Virus record (IMG/VR): IMGVR_UViG_3300013127_000034
Coordinates: 1 to 22,804 of that record
From: a virus
Length of the DNA: 22,804 bases
Reading direction: 5' to 3' (one strand)
Part shown: positions 1,202 to 22,081 of the stretch, one piece after another
Position numbering within the stretch: the first letter of the stretch is position 1
How the letters are laid out: each line of letters starts with the position of its first letter
The notes under the pieces: model-generated
Databases searched by the model: none
What the model saw: only the letters and a program-made list of their open reading frames with translations
What the model was told of the DNA's origin: nothing
Translations under genes and position numbers: made by a program

Positions 1202-2131
1202 ATGACGACTCCGGCGTACCGTACCGAAACTGAGAAGGTCTCGGCGCAGTTCATCAACTCCAACTTCGTGCGCAAGCTCGAGCAGGGCCGCGTGAAGGAA
1301 GCCAGCGAGGAAGGCTCGGCTTTCATCCGCACCAAGCTCCGCCAGGAAGCTTTCGTGCGCGAGATCCTTCCGCCGGTTCTCCTATCGGACGACGAGATCG
1401 ACCGTGACGAGAACACGGATCAGCCGAAGAAGATCGTAGAGAAGGAGCCCGACAGCGTGGCTACCTTCGTACCCTTCTACGGTACGGGCCCCCGCACGCT
1501 CTTCCGCGGACCGCGCTACTCCGTCTTCTTCGGAAAGACCGAGTCGCAGCGCTTCCGCAAGAGCAAGTTCGAGCTGATGACCTATCAGAACGACATCCGC
1601 AAGATCCTCTCGGATAACTCCGTGAAGGACATGGCGGACCAGGAAGATCTGAAGTTCATCCAGACCGCCAACTCGATCCTCGCGGCTGCGCCGGCGCAGG
1701 TCGTTGCGGGCACGGGCTTCAACAGCGCGGCCTTCAAGCTGGGCTTCCAGAACCTCGTAGGCCGCCGCCTCCCGATCGGTAAGCTGCTCATGACCAAGCA
1801 GACTTACTACGAGGCGCTGGACCTCCCGGCCACGAGCGTCGGTAACGACGTAGCGTCGCGTCACTACGCCGAGGGCATCGAGAAGGAAGAGCGCCTTTGG
1901 GGCATTCCGGTCGTCTCGACCATCAAGACCGACATCCTCACGCCGCAGGCCGGCGCGTCGCACTCGGTCTACGTGTTCGCGCCGGAGAACTTCTTCGGCA
2001 ACTTCTTCCTGCTTCAGGACGCGACGCTGTTCATCAAGCAGGAAGCGGACATGATCTTCTTCCACACGTACGCGGCCCCGGGCATCGGTATCGGCAACAC
2101 AGCGTCGCTGTGCCGTATCGACATCGCCTGA
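1202..2131 (+). CDS. Major capsid protein (HK97-fold type, inferred)
   Basis: At 309 residues this has the size and pattern of a phage major capsid protein. There is a charged helical N-terminal arm (about residues 1-60), a mixed central region, a long helix around residues 130-165, and a C-terminal half of beta strands ending in aromatic-rich segments (APENFFGNFFLLQDATLFI near residues 260-278) typical of the P-domain of HK97-like capsids. Two GAGGA sequences (1184-1188 and 1191-1195) lie before the ATG, fitting strong translation. Codon use is more regular than in the neighbours, as expected for the most abundant virion protein. It sits between a decoration-like gene and the end of the head operon. 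No prohead protease or cleavage site can be identified in the window. Confidence 0.8.
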   Translation: MTTPAYRTETEKVSAQFINSNFVRKLEQGRVKEASEEGSAFIRTKLRQEAFVREILPPVLLSDDEIDRDENTDQPKKIVEKEPDSVATFVPFYGTGPRTLFRGPRYSVFFGKTESQRFRKSKFELMTYQNDIRKILSDNSVKDMADQEDLKFIQTANSILAAAPAQVVAGTGFNSAAFKLGFQNLVGRRLPIGKLLMTKQTYYEALDLPATSVGNDVASRHYAEGIEKEERLWGIPVVSTIKTDILTPQAGASHSVYVFAPENFFGNFFLLQDATLFIKQEADMIFFHTYAAPGIGIGNTASLCRIDIA

Positions 2132-3736: not shown

Positions 3737-4216
3737 ATGCCCATAGTCGCAACGCCGGCCACGCCGATCATCGTGACTACGGATCAAGTCCGTAGGTTCA
3801 TGCGCGACTACCCCGATAAGAACATCCTGCTCGATGACGTCGAATTCAGCCAGGAAGACGTCAATCAGGGCATTGAGATGGTCACGTCGAAATACAACGC
3901 CGTGACTCCTCAAACAACGATGTTTCCGTCTACATGGCCCAGCCACCTACAGTACGTGCTGTTGCTTGGTGTGGCCGCGTACCTGATAAAGAGCTGCGCC
4001 TTCTTGCAGCTACGGAACCAAGCTACCTACCAAGATGGCGACATCGCGCCCATCGGCATCGACGACAAATACCCGCTGTATCTACAGTTCGCCCAAGCGC
4101 TGCAGGCGGAGTGGGACGAGATGGTGCGTGGGATAAAGACGCAAAACAACCTGGAGTGCGCTTACGGATCCCTGTCCTCGGGGTATCGCAACGTGTCCAG
4201 GTTCCACCAAAGTTAG
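3737..4216 (+). CDS. Probable head-tail connector or neck adaptor protein
   Basis: The 159-residue protein has an N-terminal segment (TTDQVRRFMRDYPDKN) followed by LLDDVEFSQEDVNQGIEMV and a helix-rich remainder, including a hydrophobic helix at about residues 70-88. The pattern of an alpha-helical small protein with a 'defines a short arm, then DDVEFS and a helix leading to the rest' order resembles phage head-completion or adaptor proteins of the gp6/gp15 type, from memory rather than from an alignment. Its place among head-to-tail genes agrees. It lies 9 bases after the previous gene with no clear Shine-Dalgarno. Other neck functions are possible. Confidence 0.5.
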   Translation: MPIVATPATPIIVTTDQVRRFMRDYPDKNILLDDVEFSQEDVNQGIEMVTSKYNAVTPQTTMFPSTWPSHLQYVLLLGVAAYLIKSCAFLQLRNQATYQDGDIAPIGIDDKYPLYLQFAQALQAEWDEMVRGIKTQNNLECAYGSLSSGYRNVSRFHQS

Positions 4217-4225
4217 GCGGATCCC

Positions 4226-4879
4226 ATGGTTACTGCTGCCTACGCAATGGGTTGTCTGGCTGCCCGCCTCAAGCTGGGAACGGCTGCGGGAGCTATCGAA
4301 TACGCTCCTGGCCCTCCGGGCGAAACTCCGACCAACAACGACAACATGGTGCAAGAGCAGCAACTCCACGCGAAGCGTGAGCCTGCCCCGGCGTTCATGG
4401 TGCCCAAGATGGCCAGCCAATCTGACGCCGGGTACGCGCAGTATGGTGACGGTCTGTACGGTGTAGGCGCTGCTGACGCTAACCGCCTGCTGGTAGACCG
4501 TGATCTACGCAACCGCCTCTCTATTCAGAGGGCCTTTGACACCAACAACAACCTGGACGCGTCGTTCGGCCCCGAGCCCGCAATGACGCAGCCGCACGGC
4601 TCTGAGAAAGCCGCGGCTGCGGCCGCGACGTTTGGCGTAGGCGGCGGGATGCGTTCTGGCGGCATGTCCGGAATGACGAGCGCCAACTCCCTGATGGGCA
4701 ACGACGGCATGCCTCAGCTGAATGCGCCCAAGATGGGGCGTGGCATGCACTTGGACCCTCGGGCGGATAAGCCCCCGGGCATGAATCTACAGCACGGGAT
4801 TCAGACTGCGTCAGGCGCTTACGACATGAGTAGCTCCGCGGGATCTCCTGTTCGCCGGTTCCAAGGGAACCCGCTCTGA
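4226..4879 (+). CDS. Unknown virion-region protein with shared N-terminal motif
   Basis: This 217-residue protein is low in regular structure: rich in Gly, Met, Ala, Asn and Pro, with a Gly/Met-rich stretch around residues 137-160 and many short PHG, GMQ and NAPK-like turns. The N-terminus (A5-Y6 onward, AYAMGCLAARLKLG) matches the N-terminal motif of the proteins at 11567 and 14001. That could be a targeting or assembly signal for the virion. It ends one base before the start of the polyvalent protein and is probably in the same operon. GCGGA upstream of the ATG at 4226 gives only a weak ribosome-binding site. No function can be assigned. Confidence 0.55.
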   Translation: MVTAAYAMGCLAARLKLGTAAGAIEYAPGPPGETPTNNDNMVQEQQLHAKREPAPAFMVPKMASQSDAGYAQYGDGLYGVGAADANRLLVDRDLRNRLSIQRAFDTNNNLDASFGPEPAMTQPHGSEKAAAAAATFGVGGGMRSGGMSGMTSANSLMGNDGMPQLNAPKMGRGMHLDPRADKPPGMNLQHGIQTASGAYDMSSSAGSPVRRFQGNPL

Positions 4880-4880
4880 T

Positions 4881-7184
4881 ATGCGCCGCGCCCCGCAAAG
4901 GCCGGGCAAGCTAGCGTCCGCGCCCGAAATGGGCTCGGCCATGTACAGCCCTTTGTCTAGCGCCACGGGCGATTCTGGGCGTAGCCATGGACGCACTAAC
5001 GATGATCCGGCTAATAACGCAGCGTCTGCTTTTGAAGAACAGCAGAAGCAGCTGCTGAATCACCCGCACAACGAAGCGCACCCGTTTCCGGTAGGGGCTA
5101 ATCAAAGTGCTTTGTTGAAGAGTGCCGCTGAGGACTGGACTAAGAAACTACTCGAGTCTTCGTCCTTGCCGCTGCGCACAGACCCCGAGCTAATTGCCGC
5201 AGCAGACGGTGGGCCTGCTTTTGGTAACGACAAGGGCTCCAAGTTCATCGTACATGACCCGGCGCAAGGACACAGCTGGCCAGGTCTAGCGCATGAACTA
5301 GGTCACGCAGACATAGACGATACCCTGCTAGGGCAAATAGGCCACTCCCGCGCAGCTGACTGGGCCCTAAAAGCTACACCTTTTGTGGGCCTGGCTCAGG
5401 GTTTTGCCGGCGTACGTTGGCCCACAACACTAGCTACCGCAGGGCTGTTGGCGGCCCCGCGAATAGGTGCGGAGCTGGGCGCAGACTACCAAGGATATCA
5501 GCGACTAAAGCGTTTGGGGGCTGACGACGCTACACTGCGCGAATATCTATCGAGCATTGCGTTGCCTCAAGCCAGTTATGCAGCAATGCCCTTGTTAGCT
5601 ACCGGCGCTAACAGGGCAGCTAATTTCGCTATGAAAGCGGCCAAGCACAAGCTCGCTCGCCGCATGAAGTTTCAAGGCCTAGACATCAGCATTGAAACTG
5701 ACGTAGGGGACAAACGCGAATGGTACGACCCACACGAAGATAAACACGGCGTGACCGTGATGAAGTACCCGTATGGGTACATACGTAAAACACTAGGGAC
5801 TGACGGCGATCACGTAGACGTGTACGTAGGCCCCGACGAAGGTGCTTCGTATGTTTACGTGATCAATCAGATGAAAGCGCCGGAGTTTAAGGAGTTTGAC
5901 GAGCAGAAGTGCATGCTCGGTTTCCCGAATGCCGCGGCTGCCAAGTCGGCGTACCTGAAGCAGTACAACAACCCTCGCTTCTTCGGTTCAATGAAGAAAA
6001 TGTCGCTCGAGGACTTCCGGGCGAAGGTCCTCGACAAGAAGAACCACGGCGAAAAGGTGGCGGCGAAGGCGGTCTATTACCACGGCAGTCCGCACAAGCT
6101 GACGACCCTCCGTGGCGGCTCCTGGGTGACCCCGCACAAGGAGGACGCCGCCGTCTTCGGTGCGCCGTGGGGCAGCAAGGACCTGCACCACAAGGGCGGT
6201 GATGATGGCCGTCCTCCGCAGCAGCTCGACTTCAAGAAAGAGCCGCCGAAGGATCACCCCGTCTACGTCTACGAGGTCAGCGGCAACGTGAAGCCAGCCC
6301 TGACGAACACCGGGCGGGAGTACGACTGGAATCGCCAGCTCACTGCTGAGACCCCGGTGAAGTTGGTTGAGGTGATCCCGTCGTGGCATGACCGCTTCAT
6401 CAGGAAGGAAGCGGCCCACGCCGACGACCGCTTCGCCGAACGCAGCACTCTGGGCAAGCCCCACCTGAAGACACTGCGCGACGTCCTTCACGCAGCCGAT
6501 CCGCACAAGCTGCCTGAGAAGTTCACCGTGCCTCTCGTTGATGGGAGCAAGGCGGTGGTGATGCGCACGCCAGGATCTACACCCAAGCTGACGCTCAAGA
6601 CCGTCTTGTCGGCGCGCATGAAGTCCAAGGATCCAGTGATTACGGTAGACACGCTGCATTCGGCTAAGCATGCGGCTCTATCTGATTCGCAGATCATGGA
6701 CCTAGCAGGCTTCAAGCAGACCTCAGACGCCAACGTGTCCGAGTCCCAAGTAGCTCGCGGAACTCGGGTGGAGAAAGAACACACCGATCGGGCGGGCATC
6801 GCGCGGCAAATAGCCGTAGATCATCTCAACGAGCGCCCCGATTACTACAAGCTACTCGAGCGTCACGTAGAGAATGCGCCGCCCGGCGCCGGTAACAAGC
6901 TAGCCAGCTTGCGAGACTACCTCGCTAAGCGCGCTTCGGACTTCAGCGCCTTCAGCCCTACCAACACAGCCACACGCGGCCCGGGCCCTACCCACAACCA
7001 AGTGCCCGGCGACTTCCTAGGGCTGCCCATGAGCCAGCCCGGCGGTTACCGGAAAATCGTTGGGGGTCACCCAGAGGTACCGGACGAGGGTATAGCGCGC
7101 ACGTTTAGGTTCCACGACGAACCCACGGACACGTATACTATGGACGGCAACACCGCTGCGCAGCCGAGCGGGCCCGCCGTATAG
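4881..7184 (+). CDS. Multidomain polyvalent protein: metalloprotease-, pyrophosphatase- and ADP-ribosyltransferase-like
   Basis: This 767-residue protein has several parts. Residues 1-110 are a disordered-looking N-terminus. Residues about 120-250 hold HELGH (138-142), a zinc metalloprotease core, followed by hydrophobic helices and AELGADYQGYQRL, in the position of the second metal-binding helix of YugP-like peptidases. Residues 262-385 match the inorganic pyrophosphatase-like domain of phage polyvalent proteins: YGYI at 298-301, DGDHVDV at 308-314 (compare the pyrophosphatase DGDPxD signature) and DEQKCMLGF from 340. Residues about 396-510 begin YYHGSP (399-404), then GSWVT and DAAVFG, an ADP-ribosyltransferase-like pattern. 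Residues 513-585 (HADDRFAER onward) are a further small unassigned domain, and the C-terminus contains LRDYLAKRA (677-685). The gene sits among neck genes, so the product may be packaged and injected. Domain calls are by eye. GTA and CTA codons vanish between about 5840 and 6640. Confidence 0.7.
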   Translation: MRRAPQRPGKLASAPEMGSAMYSPLSSATGDSGRSHGRTNDDPANNAASAFEEQQKQLLNHPHNEAHPFPVGANQSALLKSAAEDWTKKLLESSSLPLRTDPELIAAADGGPAFGNDKGSKFIVHDPAQGHSWPGLAHELGHADIDDTLLGQIGHSRAADWALKATPFVGLAQGFAGVRWPTTLATAGLLAAPRIGAELGADYQGYQRLKRLGADDATLREYLSSIALPQASYAAMPLLATGANRAANFAMKAAKHKLARRMKFQGLDISIETDVGDKREWYDPHEDKHGVTVMKYPYGYIRKTLGTDGDHVDVYVGPDEGASYVYVINQMKAPEFKEFDEQKCMLGFPNAAAAKSAYLKQYNNPRFFGSMKKMSLEDFRAKVLDKKNHGEKVAAKAVYYHGSPHKLTTLRGGSWVTPHKEDAAVFGAPWGSKDLHHKGGDDGRPPQQLDFKKEPPKDHPVYVYEVSGNVKPALTNTGREYDWNRQLTAETPVKLVEVIPSWHDRFIRKEAAHADDRFAERSTLGKPHLKTLRDVLHAADPHKLPEKFTVPLVDGSKAVVMRTPGSTPKLTLKTVLSARMKSKDPVITVDTLHSAKHAALSDSQIMDLAGFKQTSDANVSESQVARGTRVEKEHTDRAGIARQIAVDHLNERPDYYKLLERHVENAPPGAGNKLASLRDYLAKRASDFSAFSPTNTATRGPGPTHNQVPGDFLGLPMSQPGGYRKIVGGHPEVPDEGIARTFRFHDEPTDTYTMDGNTAAQPSGPAV

Positions 7185-7216: not shown

Positions 7217-8053
7217 ATGCAAACAGTCATCACACGCACGACTCCTATATACCGGTCGCAGAGTGATCACGGTATATTCCTGCAATGGGTAATTGAAAAT
7301 CCCACTCTAAATCCCATTGCTAATACGAAGATCGAGCGTGCGGGGGCGCCTGAAGGGCCGTACGAGCTAGTAATAGACGGGCTGGCGGGTTTTCACTTCT
7401 ACGACGACCTACGCGCACTGCCTGCCCCTGCGCCCGGTAACACTCGAGAGAATCTGAACTTCCTGTCTCTGAGCCGCCAGATCTACTACCGCGTAACGAT
7501 CACGGACAGCGCAGGAGCCAGTTCTGCAGGTGTACGCTCACTAGAAGCAGGACTGCCTAAGAGGCAAATGCTGCTCAAGCGCAAGATACTACGCGATGAG
7601 CGTGTGGCGTTTAAGTTCAACGGGACGCAGTTCGCCGTACTCAAGCGTCGGCACTGGGGCACCCGTTGCAAAGTGTGCTTTGACCTACTGACTAAGCGCG
7701 TCACCCGCAGCAAGTGCAACGAGTGCTACGGTACGGGCTTCGAGGGCGGGTATTGGGCACCCGTGCGAATAACCGCGCGTCAGGGCGTCACCAACGTACA
7801 GACGCAGATGTCCCCGCAGGGAAACACGGACATTAACAAGAAGCGTCTCGTGCTGCTAGACTACCCTGCCGTAGAGGTCCACGACGTACTGGTAGACATA
7901 GCTCGCAACTCCCGCTTCATCGTAGACACCGCTACGCGTACCGAGCTCCGCTCAGTAGTGGTACACCAAGAGCTCACGCTCTCGGAGATAGCCCGCGATA
8001 GCATCGAGTATCGGATCCCCGTCAACTTCGACCACATACCCGTGATCTACTAA
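7217..8053 (+). CDS. Neck/tail protein: FN3-like domain plus zinc knuckle
   Basis: The 278-residue protein has an FN3-like N-terminal region (about residues 15-115: ILQW-type first strand, EGPYELVIDGL, FHFYDD, then a YYRVTITD strand and GASSAG). A four-cysteine knuckle follows at C151-x2-C154 and C167-x2-C170, continuing CYGTGFEGGYW, which should bind one zinc ion and resembles DnaJ-type CxxCxGxG turns. The C-terminal 90 residues are beta-rich. It is followed, with a one-base overlap (TAATG), by a tail-terminator-like gene and then by the sheath, so it probably belongs to the neck or proximal tail. No enzyme motif is visible. The start at 7217 lacks a good Shine-Dalgarno. Confidence 0.6.
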   Translation: MQTVITRTTPIYRSQSDHGIFLQWVIENPTLNPIANTKIERAGAPEGPYELVIDGLAGFHFYDDLRALPAPAPGNTRENLNFLSLSRQIYYRVTITDSAGASSAGVRSLEAGLPKRQMLLKRKILRDERVAFKFNGTQFAVLKRRHWGTRCKVCFDLLTKRVTRSKCNECYGTGFEGGYWAPVRITARQGVTNVQTQMSPQGNTDINKKRLVLLDYPAVEVHDVLVDIARNSRFIVDTATRTELRSVVVHQELTLSEIARDSIEYRIPVNFDHIPVIY

Positions 8054-11566: not shown

Positions 11567-13216
<1,650 letters not shown>

Positions 13217-13251: not shown

Positions 13252-14004
13252 ATGCCCCTCGGTATTACACGAAATCTAGCATCCTGGCGCTTCCAGGATC
13301 AGTATGTCGAGCGCGTCATGGATAACGCGGCGTACACGTCCGCGCACCCTGACGACACGCTTGTCCTTGCTGGTCCGGCACGTCTAGACACCGTAGACGT
13401 TGCGCGCAGCAACGGCCAGAGCATCCAGTCGCTGCTAGCGATTGGCATGCTGCAGAACTTCAGCCTAAGCCAGTCCAAGCCCACCCAGCCTATGATGGCC
13501 ATCGGTTCAGGCCGCTCTTTCTTCGTGAGCGGTAAGGCGCAAGGACAGGGCAACATGCAGCGCCTGTTCGTGAACGGACGTAATCTACTCCGCGTGCTCT
13601 ACCACTGCGCTCGCGCAGCCAACCTGCCCGTCAATCTGCTGGACGATCCGGCAGCGCGCAGCGCCCAGTCCAAGTTCTACATCAATCTGGACTCCGAGCT
13701 GTACCTCATCCCCTTCGGTCTAGGCTCGGTGTTCCGAACCAAGGCTCACGACTTCGTGGGCGGGTTCTACGCCGAACTCACCATGCTGACCAACTACACG
13801 ATCGGCTACCAAGCAGGCGGCAACCAGATCATGGAGCAGGTGGGCTTCGTATTCGATCGCCTCCTACCCTTCGGCGAAGACACCCAGGTACTAACCAACG
13901 TGTCGCGCGCTTCGCTAGATCAGGTCATCGGCTTCATCGACGCGACCGACACCGACGTCGCCGCAGAGAAGATCGACAGCAGCACCGTAAGCGCCACGGT
14001 GTGA
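13252..14004 (+). CDS. Probable tail tube protein
   Basis: The 250-residue protein is a soluble, mixed alpha/beta protein with no low-complexity parts. It contains QSIQSLLAIGMLQNFSLSQSKP, RSFFVSGKAQGQGNMQRLFVNG, SELYLIPFGLGSVFRT and a C-terminal beta/Asp-rich end. Tail tube subunits of large myophages have this size and combine strong expression with a location after the sheath; the AGGAG at 13242-13246 and its own putative promoter agree. A 549-residue protein intervenes between sheath and this gene, unlike the simplest sheath-tube order. I cannot point to a diagnostic motif; a baseplate or other tail component remains possible. Confidence 0.5.
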   Translation: MPLGITRNLASWRFQDQYVERVMDNAAYTSAHPDDTLVLAGPARLDTVDVARSNGQSIQSLLAIGMLQNFSLSQSKPTQPMMAIGSGRSFFVSGKAQGQGNMQRLFVNGRNLLRVLYHCARAANLPVNLLDDPAARSAQSKFYINLDSELYLIPFGLGSVFRTKAHDFVGGFYAELTMLTNYTIGYQAGGNQIMEQVGFVFDRLLPFGEDTQVLTNVSRASLDQVIGFIDATDTDVAAEKIDSSTVSATV

Positions 14005-14486
14005 CGATGCGCCATCGCGCCTACCGCTCGGGCTGCCTGTACGCAACCGCCTGTTTAGGGTTGCTTAAGCAGGCAAGCCTGGTGGCGCCTGGGCTACTTG
14101 GAGCAAGCCTGGGCGCTACGACGGGCGCACTCGCCGCTGGCGAAGGCAACCGTATAGAAGGAGCACTCCTGGGCAGCGCGCTAGGCGCTGCTGGAGGCGC
14201 TGGTGGCGCGGCGTTAGGGCGGCGGACCGGGTCCGGCATAAGACAGTGGGCTGAAGGCGTAGCAAATAAACACCTTGCTGCTGCAGACGCAGCTGAGCTC
14301 GCGGGAGCAGTGCGCCCTTCCACGGAGACCCTGCTGACTAACCTAGAGCATATACGCGCTGCGGAGCCGTGGATTGAGCACGCAGGTACCGCCGGCGGTA
14401 CGGCCATAGGCATGGGTGCTGCCGGGCGGCTTGCTCCAGGCCCTGCGCCGCAGCCAAACCAAGACCCCTACGGCTATTACCAGTAA
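14001..14486 (+). CDS. Glycine-zipper protein, possible membrane-active virion component
   Basis: The 161-residue protein begins with GTG overlapping the preceding stop (GTGA); an ATG at 14007 is an alternative start. The N-terminus (A7-Y8, AYRSGCLYATACLGLLKQA) shares the motif of the proteins at 4226 and 11567. Residues about 28-75 are two Gly/Ala-rich helices (LGASLGATTGALAAG, then ALLGSALGAAGGAGGAALG) with the small-xxx-small spacing of glycine zippers, joined by GNRIEGA (49-55), matching GERWEGA in the 549-residue protein. A second hydrophobic Gly/Ala segment follows near residues 130-150. It may insert in membranes during DNA entry or act as an internal tail protein; this is inferred from composition only. 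Confidence 0.6.
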   Translation: MTMRHRAYRSGCLYATACLGLLKQASLVAPGLLGASLGATTGALAAGEGNRIEGALLGSALGAAGGAGGAALGRRTGSGIRQWAEGVANKHLAAADAAELAGAVRPSTETLLTNLEHIRAAEPWIEHAGTAGGTAIGMGAAGRLAPGPAPQPNQDPYGYYQ

Positions 14487-15986: not shown

Positions 15987-16018
15987 ACAAAAGACCACTA
16001 CACCTGTGATCTTTTGTT
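15986..16018. terminator. Bidirectional intrinsic terminator between convergent genes
   Basis: AACAAAAGA (15986-15994) and TCTTTTGTT (16010-16018) form a 9-base stem, extended by a C-A mismatch and CAC/GTG pairs around a 7-base loop. A-rich and T-rich arms give a U-tract on either strand. It overlaps the spike stop codon by one base and lies 22 bases from the end of the minus-strand gene at 16040, so it can stop both transcripts. Confidence 0.8.
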
Positions 16019-16039
16019 ACCGACACAGTCAATGTCTAC

Positions 16040-16369
16040 TCATCCGTTGAGCACATTGAGGTCGTCCACATCTAGCAGAGATACCTCTACTAGATCCTTA
16101 CGTTTCCCTTTCCCGTCTTTGACTGGGTCTATGACTACTAGCAGTATATCCGCGTCGGTATGGACGATAGTCCCTACGTGGGTCTTACCGTCACTAGTAA
16201 AAAACGTAGCTACTTGTCCGCGACGTTGGGCTAAAAGAGCAGCGCGTTTTACCGCGCGCGCTCTTAGGACTTTTCCCTCAGTGTGGGAGTGGTATTCTAA
16301 GACTAGAACACCCGCTCCCACACTGAGAAGTCCTGCGCCCCACATCGCCAACGCGATTAACGCTGGCAT
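16040..16369 (-). CDS. Small membrane-anchored protein with basic/beta C-terminal domain
   Basis: The 109-residue protein starts with a single hydrophobic segment (about residues 3-26: ALIALAMWGAGLLSVGAGVLVL), followed by a basic region and a beta-rich domain (QVATFFTSDGKTHVGTIVHTDADILLVVIDP) that looks like a small barrel. The ATG is preceded by TGAGGACT seven bases away, which overlaps the stop of the upstream membrane gene, so the pair is translationally coupled. Codon use is like most of this phage (CTA and GTA present). The segment 16266-16334 inside it forms a striking hairpin. Membrane topology and role are unknown; a lysis or membrane-associated accessory function is only a guess. The long plus-strand frame across this area is Ser/Thr/Arg-rich and rejected. 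Confidence 0.6.
   Translation of the reverse strand: MPALIALAMWGAGLLSVGAGVLVLEYHSHTEGKVLRARAVKRAALLAQRRGQVATFFTSDGKTHVGTIVHTDADILLVVIDPVKDGKGKRKDLVEVSLLDVDDLNVLNG
16266..16334. repeat. Long imperfect inverted repeat (hairpin) inside a membrane-protein gene
   Basis: From the outside inwards: AGGACTT (16266-16272) pairs with AAGTCCT (16328-16334); four unpaired bases (ttcc); then a perfect 13-base stem, CTCAGTGTGGGAG (16277-16289) with CTCCCACACTGAG (16315-16327); then an apical TTCTA (16295-16299) / TAGAA (16304-16308) stem with an AGAC loop. It lies in codons for about residues 12-35 of the gene at 16040-16369 and could form in its mRNA. Confidence 0.9.
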
Positions 16370-16381
16370 GCGGGCCAGTCC

Positions 16382-16765
16382 TCAGCTCGCCGCCGCCTTA
16401 CGGCGGTTGGCTGGGGGCGGTGGCGCCTGCTCCGGCTCTGGTGCCGGGGCAGGCGCCTGCGCTGGTGCCGCTGCCGCCTTCGCGGCTTGGGCCTCCTGCC
16501 TCGCGGAGAATACCTCCGCGAGGAGTCGCCCTTCCCGCTCGCTGTGGACCATGCGTCGAGTGTGGAGCGCCAGCTCCACACCGCGCACCCCGTCGGCCTG
16601 CCAGGCCTCGACGAGTGCGGCGTTGTCCTCGGCCAGCTTCTTGGCCGAGCGACCCTCCAGGATCCACCGTGCGGTGACCCCGAGGATCACCACGCTCGCC
16701 GTCCCACCGACGGCGAAAACCAGCCATCCCCAAACGCCCAACAGGATCACGGGCATGTTGCCCAC
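16382..16765 (-). CDS. Membrane-anchored coiled-coil protein with Pro/Ala-rich tail, GC-rich island
   Basis: The 127-residue protein has one N-terminal membrane segment (about residues 5-33: VILLGVWGWLVFAVGGTASVVILGV), then a charged helical stretch with coiled-coil character (about 36-90) and a Pro/Ala/Glu tail (PAQAPAPAPEPEQ) ending in basic NRRK. The start is GTG at 16765 with GAGGAG (minus strand of 16770-16775) a few bases upstream; an ATG at 16756 behind AAGGTGG is an alternative. The layout of membrane anchor plus coiled coil resembles inner-membrane spanins or holin-associated proteins, but no partner or endolysin is visible here. Codons are almost all G/C-ending, unlike its neighbours, suggesting foreign origin. 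It is the first gene of a two-gene minus-strand unit. Confidence 0.6.
   Translation of the reverse strand: MGNMPVILLGVWGWLVFAVGGTASVVILGVTARWILEGRSAKKLAEDNAALVEAWQADGVRGVELALHTRRMVHSEREGRLLAEVFSARQEAQAAKAAAAPAQAPAPAPEPEQAPPPPANRRKAAAS
16499..16581. repeat. Two perfect hairpins within the GC-rich membrane gene
   Basis: First hairpin: CCTCGCGGAG (16499-16508), loop AATAC, CTCCGCGAGG (16514-16523), a 10-base perfect stem. Second: GTGTGGAGC (16560-16568), loop GCCA, GCTCCACAC (16573-16581), a 9-base perfect stem. Nearby, GGCGCCTGC occurs at 16422-16430 and again at 16452-16460, with its inverse at 16449-16457. Confidence 0.85.
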
Positions 16766-16771
16766 CTTTCT

Positions 16772-16791
16772 CCTCGGCGAGCTTGCCGAGG
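16772..16791 (-). promoter_or_regulatory. Hairpin covering the ribosome-binding site of the membrane gene
   Basis: CCTCGGC (16772-16778) and GCCGAGG (16785-16791) form a perfect 7-base stem with a 6-base loop. On the minus strand the 3' arm contains part of GAGGAG (16770-16775), the Shine-Dalgarno for the GTG start at 16765, so the structure could block translation. On the plus strand it could act as a weak stop signal, but it lacks a T-tract. Confidence 0.5.
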
Positions 16792-16830
16792 TCTACATAT
16801 TCTTATACCCCAACAACGCGTCTAATTTTT

Positions 16831-17028
16831 ATGCCCCCTACCTGGAACAAACCGCCCGTATTTTCAGCTACCCTACGACTCTCTCGGCTAGTTTCCGCAC
16901 TCAAGAAGAAAGAGCTAGACGATAAGTTGCAGCGACTACACTCACTGCTACAAAAACAACTGAGGCGCGCGAATGGCGAACTGGGCGACAGTAAATCTAA
17001 GCCAGCTGATCCCCGCGGAACTGACTGA
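16831..17028 (+). CDS. Small basic coiled-coil protein
   Basis: A 65-residue reading frame starts at ATG 16831 and overlaps the start of the next gene by 56 bases. It is basic, with a heptad-like Leu pattern (LVSALKKKELDDKLQRLHSL) suggesting an amphipathic or coiled-coil helix. CTA and GTA codons occur as in genuine genes of this phage. A TTG 48 bases upstream (16783) is a possible alternative start, though it would overlap the hairpin at 16772-16791. No Shine-Dalgarno is visible; TATACC at 16804-16809 might be part of a promoter. The overlap would favour translational coupling with the large gene that follows. The call depends on codon character only, so it is tentative. Confidence 0.45.
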   Translation: MPPTWNKPPVFSATLRLSRLVSALKKKELDDKLQRLHSLLQKQLRRANGELGDSKSKPADPRGTD

Positions 17029-20219: not shown

Positions 20220-20627
20220 ATGCCCAACGTAAAAGGTAGCGCGGGTAAACCAGCCACGATGGATCTCACCACGGGGTCGGCGCACCTACAGGGTGCTGAA
20301 CAGGCCGCTCGTGATATGGGTGCTGGTTTGAACATGTTGAGTGCCGAGGTTGCCGATCTTAACAAGACCCGCCTGGGCCAAAAGACCAACACACCACCTA
20401 AGGCGCGCATACTCAACACAGGGCCGTATACCACGTCAGGCAGTTTGGCGCCTCCCAAAACGGCCGCTTTGGAGGATACGCCCAGTTACCGAATAGCGTC
20501 TTCCACCAGTACCAGCTGCGGCTCGTGCAAACACCGCGTCACTGCTGGTACCGAGAAAGACTACTGCAAACTGCACGACTTCTACGTTAGTGAGGACTAC
20601 GTCTGCGACAGCTGGCGGCCGCGCTAA
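20220..20627 (+). CDS. Small protein with C-terminal four-cysteine cluster
   Basis: The 135-residue protein has a hydrophilic, mostly disordered first two thirds. Its C-terminus carries C-x2-C, then YCKLHDFYVSEDYVCDSW, giving four cysteines spaced as in small zinc- or iron-sulfur-binding domains (from memory a similar 'CGxC...YC...YVCDxW' end occurs in other phages, sometimes called high-potential iron-sulfur-like). Metal or cluster binding is likely, but the type cannot be told from sequence. It may start on a leaderless mRNA and its stop overlaps the stop of the convergent radical SAM gene by 4 bases. Whether the two act together is unknown. Confidence 0.65.
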   Translation: MPNVKGSAGKPATMDLTTGSAHLQGAEQAARDMGAGLNMLSAEVADLNKTRLGQKTNTPPKARILNTGPYTTSGSLAPPKTAALEDTPSYRIASSTSTSCGSCKHRVTAGTEKDYCKLHDFYVSEDYVCDSWRPR

Positions 20628-22081
20628 GCCTCCGGCAGCACGAACGCGCGATACTTGGCGACGAAGTCCTGGGGGTCCGGTAGCGGTAGCAGCTCCTCAC
20701 GGGGGCCGTACGAGGACGGTCCCATAGACCCCTTCACAGCATCTACGTAAGCCGAGAAAGCGCCCTCGAGCACGTGATAGAACCGCGTGTCCACGCCACG
20801 TGCCTTCAGCTGCGCGTCGAACTGCTCGGCCAGTGCCGTGTCGATGCCGATCTGAAGATACGTGTCTTTCTCCGCCACGCGCTCAACCACTGTGAACCAG
20901 TCTTTGTACAGACTAGGCATGACTGACTTGCCGCGACCCGCGGTTTTGTACCCAAGTAGTGTTACCCGGATGTTCGCCTCGGCGCAGGTGTGTAGAATAC
21001 GCGCAAGCTCGTCGAGCTGTACCACGCCCATGACGCACTGGACCATTGCTTTGCTCGCAGGGCAATCAGACTGTGCCAGCTGCCGAATGAGATTCTTCAC
21101 GTCCTTCTCGGACGTAGCCGAGTAAGCAAAAGCCCCGCAGAGCTCGAGTACACGCGTGCGCAGCGCCTTATTGCGCAGCCAGTCCAAGCGCTTCGTCGTG
21201 AAGTTGGGGACGATGTGCTTGTCTCGCGCATACTGCAATATCTCCACGAAGTCCGGGTGCTGCGTGGTCTCGCCACCGCCCAACGCAGCTTCGAACACTT
21301 GCAACTCCGAGAGCGTGTCTAGTACGCGCTTGATGTACGCAGTGTTGCCGTGCACGCCCTCGGGTGTGGAGTCCTGATAACAGAACGCGCAGCCCGCCGT
21401 GCAGTAGTCGGTGATCTTGATGTCTACTAGCTCGGGCGTCTCCGCACGAGTGACTTTACGCTGCAGCGTGATGTCGTCGAACGCCAACCGCATCTTACCG
21501 CCAGAGCGACGGTTGAACAGCGTCCAGAACGCATACTGCGAATCCCAGCGCGCAACGAGGTTGCCGCGTCCCTCACCGCCGAAGAACGACGTAGGCATCT
21601 CCTGCTCTGCGTTGTAGAGCGGGTGTATGTGATCATCGTTGTCGTTGCCGCCAAGAATGGCTACGCCGTCTTGCAGAATGAAATCACTGAACTGCGCCAA
21701 GAACTGCCGATGAACATCGTTCTCGAGCCAGTTACGTGGAAACGTAAGTACGCTCTGATGATCTACACTGGCGTTAATATGCCCCGACCCATCGTTGGTG
21801 TATGAGTGCTTCTCAAACGAGATGTCAGGTAAATCATACATGTCCCGAAGGATATCCGCGGCTACCTCGCCGGGGGTAAATTGACTCAACGCGATATACG
21901 CCTGCGCGGCCAGCCACCAACGCTTGGTCTCGGAGCTAGCCGCGGTAAAATATTCCCATCCGAACTCGTGATCCGACACGTCGTTATCACGGGCGCCGCC
22001 TTTGATAAAAATAATCGAATGGGATGAGGACGAGTTAGTCGCAAATCCCATTCGCACGTTGTATATTTTTAGCTCTCTCAC
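20624..22081 (-). CDS. Radical SAM enzyme with N-terminal TNSSSS motif
   Basis: The 485-residue protein has a radical SAM core. CTAGCAFC gives the C-x3-C-x2-C motif at C227, C231 and C234, binding a [4Fe-4S] cluster that cleaves S-adenosylmethionine. GGE at 269-271 (in LGGGETTQHPDF) is the usual second motif. The N-terminal 220 residues are an additional domain, beginning with MGFATNSSSSHS (residues 11-22), a Ser-rich motif that I recall from other bacterial and phage proteins. GTG at 22081 is chosen because AGGAG lies about seven bases upstream; ATG at codon 11 lacks one. Substrate unknown; no QueE-type features were seen. Promoter unclear. Peptide or nucleotide modification is possible. Confidence 0.85.
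   Translation of the reverse strand: MRELKIYNVRMGFATNSSSSHSIIFIKGGARDNDVSDHEFGWEYFTAASSETKRWWLAAQAYIALSQFTPGEVAADILRDMYDLPDISFEKHSYTNDGSGHINASVDHQSVLTFPRNWLENDVHRQFLAQFSDFILQDGVAILGGNDNDDHIHPLYNAEQEMPTSFFGGEGRGNLVARWDSQYAFWTLFNRRSGGKMRLAFDDITLQRKVTRAETPELVDIKITDYCTAGCAFCYQDSTPEGVHGNTAYIKRVLDTLSELQVFEAALGGGETTQHPDFVEILQYARDKHIVPNFTTKRLDWLRNKALRTRVLELCGAFAYSATSEKDVKNLIRQLAQSDCPASKAMVQCVMGVVQLDELARILHTCAEANIRVTLLGYKTAGRGKSVMPSLYKDWFTVVERVAEKDTYLQIGIDTALAEQFDAQLKARGVDTRFYHVLEGAFSAYVDAVKGSMGPSSYGPREELLPLPDPQDFVAKYRAFVLPEA

Follow-up and report, generated by a model that had tools for sequence, protein, structure and literature searches.

What is a phage doing with a long, multi-domain enzyme gene in the midst of its virion genes, and where does the product act? 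The window analysed here is a whole IMG/VR virus record of 22.8 kb, in which an ATG-started frame of 767 codons is open from 4881 to 7184. The original prediction had assigned exactly this frame to a polyvalent protein that is packaged and injected into the host, and had named a HELGH motif, a pyrophosphatase-like domain, an ADP-ribosyltransferase (ART)-like segment and a further small domain as its parts. All motifs quoted in its support are present in the translation: HELGH (residues 138-142), YGYI (298-301), DGDHVDV (308-314), DEQKCMLGF (340-348), YYHGSP (399-404) and GSWVT (413-417). The genes concerned are the following.

1202..2131, plus strand: major capsid protein gene; its homologue in contig L071 matches phrog_2522, major head protein
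4226..4879, plus strand: upstream neighbour gene, conserved in every orthologous locus
4881..7184, plus strand: polyvalent protein gene, 767 aa (ATG-started ORF; Pfam domains)
7217..8053, plus strand: downstream neighbour gene, conserved in every orthologous locus reaching that far, with a weak virion-structural PHROG match in L143
8819..11554, plus strand: tail sheath gene; its homologues in L002, L009 and L019 match tail sheath PHROGs

The gene was said to lie between head and neck genes. It does stand among virion genes, with the major capsid protein (MCP) gene on one side and the tail sheath gene on the other, both assigned through homologues; the finer placement is approximate, and both directly flanking genes are without a firm assignment. 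Within the protein we distinguish these parts:

4881..5105, plus strand: N-terminal tail, residues 1-75, xPEMGxAMY..SSATGD...PHNxAHxFPVG (orthologue alignment, dN/dS)
5217..5600, plus strand: M48-like metallopeptidase domain, residues 113-240 (motif, alignment, M48 profile matches)
5292-5306, plus strand: HELGH site, residues 138-142, metallopeptidase motif
5472-5474, plus strand: third ligand Glu198, invariant in six sequences
5649..6035, plus strand: InPase domain, polyvalent-type inorganic pyrophosphatase, residues 257-385 (Pfam, portal homologue, alignment)
6060..6410, plus strand: putative ART-like module, residues 394-510 (motif; absent as a clean block from L001)
6411..6668, plus strand: putative BECR-RNase-like segment, residues 511-596 (HADDRFAER helix and KTVL strand, at pattern level only)
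6747..6863, plus strand: DUF5661, a small domain recurring with InPase, residues 623-661 (Pfam PF18905)
6969..7181, plus strand: C-terminal tail, residues 697-767, THNQVPGD..RFHDxP, kept in all orthologues on contigs extending this far

HELGH marks a metallopeptidase site. Both HE[LI]GH and Glu198 are invariant in all six aligned syntenic sequences, and Glu198 is part of an E-x-x-A-D sequence preceded by a hydrophobic stretch; an HEXXH motif, a hydrophobic segment and then a glutamate in an ExxAD motif are common to this domain and to peptidase family M48 (HtpX/BepA). The domain is most likely M48-like, because the orthologue in L143 passes the gathering score of Pfam Peptidase_M48 (21.8 bits vs. 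20.3, E 1.8e-4) and the best PDB match of a five-sequence metallopeptidase profile, a weak one (E 0.05), is the M48 peptidase BepA. Similarity to HtpX/BepA is weak, however, and just this one orthologue passes the Pfam cut-off, the window protein itself falling below it.

The pyrophosphatase claim was borne out by a match of residues 257-382 to Pfam InPase (PF18823; E 2.2e-35, 121.9 bits vs. a curated cut-off of 26.8), while NCBIfam gave an inorganic diphosphatase match only, below threshold. The catalytic residues are kept: the six orthologous sequences agree without exception at E272, R279, D308, D310, D313, D340, E341 and K343, and an alignment of 70 IMG/VR phage InPase proteins does so at E272, R279, Y298, G299, D308, D340, E341 and K343. 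InPase domains of the polyvalent clade lack the beta-hairpin insert of the classical enzymes, according to PMC5512222. The further small domain is DUF5661 (PF18905; 39.4 bits vs. a cut-off of 27, E 7.5e-10). One chain inside a virion gene block thus holds at least two biochemically unrelated domains, namely InPase, DUF5661 and an M48-like metallopeptidase, and its gene stands among late virion genes, MCP to tail sheath, whose order is kept. By these features the 767-aa protein belongs to the phage polyvalent class. No relative with the full protein was found in the bacterial genomes searched.

The syntenic gene was recovered on further contigs (L001, L090, L143, L145/L148 and L146) when the whole protein, the zincin region and the two tails served as queries. 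These contigs amount to four distinct sequences in addition to the window, L145 and L146 being almost the same; the orthologues are few in number and without exception metagenomic. As far as each contig reaches, the gene order is MCP, the homologues of the genes at 3737 and 4226, the polyvalent gene, and the homologues of the genes at 7217 and 8053. All five relatives have the N-tail, metallopeptidase and InPase, and those on contigs long enough to include it have the C-tail as well. Their capsid proteins share 89-97% identity with the one in the window, but the stretch from InPase to C-tail is unrelated among the relatives. In the window this slot holds the ART-like module, the BECR-like segment and DUF5661; L001 has the same content minus exactly residues 394-510, its contig end cutting it at the start of DUF5661. 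The slot of L090 holds a P-loop kinase (AAA_18, E 3.4e-7) and that of L145/L146 a glycine-rich module, and L143 has no cargo but about a dozen linker residues.

That the ends, the protease and the pyrophosphatase stay constant while the cargo is swapped, shortened or dropped suggests a delivery protein, borne by the particle, whose payload can be exchanged at one slot. Our favoured explanation, which we hold to be reasonably probable, is a phage-type polyvalent protein in which a fixed carrier holds a single slot for interchangeable cargo, and which would be carried in the particle, processed and delivered. The fixed parts would be the N-tail, the C-tail, the M48-like metallopeptidase and the InPase, and the slot would lie between InPase and C-tail.

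The N-tail shows the strongest constraint in the protein (dN/dS about 0.02 vs. L001, with dS close to saturated), with a pN of 0.055 against 0.266 for the faster-evolving metallopeptidase, and C-tail identity is 54-68% in deep orthologues. A highly constrained N-tail, like the position of the gene directly inside the structural genes, would also suit a structural neck or head component that stays in the particle, its enzymatic domains acting in assembly and nothing being ejected. The InPase lends this alternative a further argument, as an orthologue profile matches the C-terminal domain of the gp19 portal (PDB 9b41_L, E 1.9e-20), and the same domain is carried by Pbunavirus minor head/portal proteins. 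Completely different cargo in close relatives is easier to reconcile with a role directed at the host than with one in assembly, however, and in the cryo-EM structure of E217 only residues 97-528 of 765 of the portal were modelled (PMC10329688), so that the InPase part is unordered there and forms no ordered neck piece. We therefore regard a purely structural role as unlikely. The window protein has the InPase domain family in common with the portals of Pbunavirus (gp19, 9b41_L, phrog_4660) and BcepF1, which are virion proteins, but it lacks a portal domain, and its InPase is central, preceded by the metallopeptidase and followed by cargo.

In many phages InPase is also found in short proteins that contain little else (e.g. 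L024, L027 and L063), as might be expected if the window protein were expressed late and acted unpackaged in the infected cell, in nucleotide metabolism or host shut-off, its gene position reflecting late transcription only. This alternative appears improbable to us: the conserved tails bear no enzymatic signature, the position between capsid and sheath genes is fixed, and among 70 InPase proteins surveyed with Pfam, four have the domain fused to portal and four to MuF. Further partners in this survey included DUF5661 in eight proteins (window included) and topoisomerase I in four. The latter are fusions of topoisomerase IB (PF01028) to InPase, confirmed in L014 (6374-10900), with the others among L009-L087. 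In Bordetella phage PHB04 (L004; 3283-6426 and 6472 onward), genes for a (p)ppGpp synthetase-like protein, a Ser/Thr phosphatase, an InPase and an N6 DNA methylase are clustered downstream of the portal gene.

DUF5661, the commonest partner in the survey of 70, is a recurrent companion of InPase. Of 79 InPase loci, 17 contain it, about half of these in the InPase chain itself and the rest elsewhere in the locus, and 52 arbitrary viral loci, a smaller control (420 vs. 1244 kb), contain none. In Vibrio phage VPs20 it is fused to a head maturation protease (phrog_530, E 2.6e-64). A separate observation concerns the 2031-aa protein of L071 (5378-11473), which combines an intein near its N-terminus (Hint/LAGLIDADG Pfam matches), DUF5661, a Gly-zipper and InPase; by eye its exteins look like prohead protease, with no supporting profile match.

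The ART claim fared less well, and comes down to short motif resemblance, with no sequence match in Pfam, PHROGs, NCBIfam or the PDB. Residues 394-510 carry VYYHGSP...GSWVT, and their precise absence from L001 shows that they form one discrete module. The ART-PolyVal profile (PF18760) gives no match to residues 392-513, and tblastn against phages and plasmids, phmmer against the PDB, Pfam at E 10 and DNA-pattern scans of IMG/VR and GTDB gave no convincing relative, except for short solo ORFs in L111 and L124 that have only an HGSP...GTWFT motif in common with it. Larger related phage records have no ART-like module. A genuine ART-PolyVal domain is present in L046 (Pfam E 3.8e-22; VFHGTP...GFYFT...A), which the VYYHGSP...GSWVT...A pattern of the window resembles, as does the solo ORF in L111. 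In a by-eye alignment with L046 and L111, H401 is present, Trp415 takes the place of the ART-PolyVal Tyr, and the third catalytic acid is not assignable. AlphaFold models of the slot segments reached a pLDDT of 37 (single sequence) and 43 (two sequences), too poor to judge an ART or BECR fold; a Foldseek search with the pLDDT-43 model gave no match at E<=0.001, a result that is meaningless at such pLDDT values and was set aside. A genuine NAD-dependent ADP-ribosyltransferase in residues 394-510 is plausible, though we lean slightly against it; it would compete only with an unassigned module and is compatible with the carrier-and-slot explanation.

Residues 511-596 look BECR-RNase-like, judging from motif patterns. 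The segment is common to L001 and is under purifying selection between the two (dN/dS about 0.13, dS near saturation), and H513 and Thr571/Thr574/Thr588, candidates for the N-terminal-helix His and the C-terminal Ser/Thr expected of PBECR RNases, are conserved in the window and L001, just two sequences. Pfam gives no match for residues 508-601, and hhalign with an L010 segment assumed to be PBECR gave a probability of 0.8%, no match.

Nearly all module boundaries carry a short motif, K-x-A-[AS], found at these places:

4908..4919, plus strand: KLAS, start of the N-tail
5118-5129, plus strand: KSAA, after the N-tail start
6054..6065, plus strand: KVAA, junction of InPase and cargo slot
6405..6416, plus strand: KEAA, junction of the ART-like and BECR-like parts
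6897-6908, plus strand: KLAS, upstream of KRAS
6927..6938, plus strand: KRAS, before the C-tail

For the wider form K-x-A-[ASNG], the window protein has seven sites where shuffling gives an expectation of 1.9 (p 0.001); six of them, at residues 10, 80, 392, 509, 673 and 683, lie at presumed module boundaries. The ART-like module is flanked by KVAA and KEAA, both of which are replaced by one KVAA in L001. The slot of L143 consists of a single KVAS, and the cargo of L090 and L145 is flanked by KVAN/KVAG and KAAS. K-x-A motifs are frequent in L001 genes upstream of the capsid gene (e.g. KTAA, KLAA and KEAA), and an enrichment of K-x-A-[AS] was seen in the gene sets of the window, L001 (24 vs. 3.9) and L071 but not in those of L009, L012 and L019. 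Giant phages are known to use a short protease motif for cleavage of their head and ejection proteins (PMC5694885). On account of this precedent, its place at junctions and its enrichment in the group, we propose K-x-A-[AS] as a possible maturation cleavage site in this phage group. We offer this as a hypothesis because the pattern was noticed prior to testing, several variants were tried, and the other orthologues are individually not significant (p 0.06-0.12), the window protein alone being significant among the five tested. The window shows no head protease gene. A role for K-x-A as a general feature of phage InPase flanks was considered and rejected: 79 proteins had 15 occurrences vs. 10.5 expected, no clear excess, and the motif is therefore claimed for this phage group only.

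Under the carrier-and-slot explanation, the two tails would place the protein in the head or neck of a phage with a contractile tail, and the chain would be built into the prohead. The head maturation protease, the protein's own metallopeptidase or both could then cut it at the K-x-A-[AS] linkers, and the freed modules would enter the cell along with the DNA. The InPase might remove pyrophosphate or a nucleotide signal, and the slot modules would be expected to act on host nucleic acid or protein. Processing and all enzymatic activities are in this sense predicted, and so are packaging and injection, as put forward in the original prediction; the synteny, the Pbunavirus portal homologue, the very strongly conserved N-tail and the swapping of cargo are consistent with them. 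More tentatively, tailed phages may possess a virion-delivered polyprotein in which a constant carrier is joined to a hypervariable slot, each cargo with its own K-x-A linkers and the payloads exchanged as cassettes, like polymorphic toxin tips; we think this wider picture possible rather than probable.

Polyvalent proteins are described by Iyer et al. 2017 (PMC5512222), who cover InPase, metallopeptidase and ART domains in them, predict that they are packaged and processed, and report that domain combinations have been rearranged among orthologous proteins of Helicobacter prophages. The window protein shares with those proteins several unrelated enzymatic domains per chain, InPase and metallopeptidase included, and a place next to virion genes; it differs in that its metallopeptidase is M48-like, a family that Iyer et al. 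do not name. The available text of their paper also has no fixed frame with a single slot, no K-x-A motifs at junctions and no DUF5661 as a common partner of InPase. New by comparison are a carrier that stays constant around one slot among close relatives, a peptidase of M48-like type, the association of DUF5661 with InPase and the motif at the junctions. P1 Dar and T4 Alt are internal head proteins, some of them processed by the prohead protease, which are ejected to protect DNA or to modify the host (PMC12810830, PMC5512222). The window protein may work like them, by proposed function alone, and no sequence relationship is claimed.

If the carrier with its slot is real, slot comparison across related phages would lead directly to proteins injected at the start of infection, and new anti-defence or host-takeover enzymes could be found without guessing at single genes. 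The analysis also ties DUF5661 and phage InPase, two little-studied domains, to head genes, and proposes a concrete candidate cleavage motif (K-x-A-[AS]).

A few further features of the window were noted. A radical SAM enzyme gene (20624-22081, minus strand; PF04055, E 1.4e-8) is encoded opposite to the structural block, at its end, and its best NCBIfam similarity, far below the cut-off, is to mycofactocin maturase. At 16014-16925 the longest plus-strand ORF looks spurious, and readable proteins are found on the minus strand, e.g. a membrane-like ORF (ALIALAMWGAGLLSVGAG...), forming a small antisense island in a one-way gene block. The genes at 11567-13216 and 14001-14486 are glycine/alanine-rich genes of the virion region, one of them with a polyglutamine run. 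By eye, the glycine-rich module of L145/L146 resembles the glycine-rich part of 14001-14486, which suggests that modules move between genes. The N-termini of 4226-4879, 11567-13216 and 14001-14486 have in common a YxxG...LGL-type pattern (AYAMGCLAARLKLGTAAG, AYAEGRDLALTGLGLEKVA and AYRSGCLYATACLGLLKQA), possibly a capsid-targeting signal.
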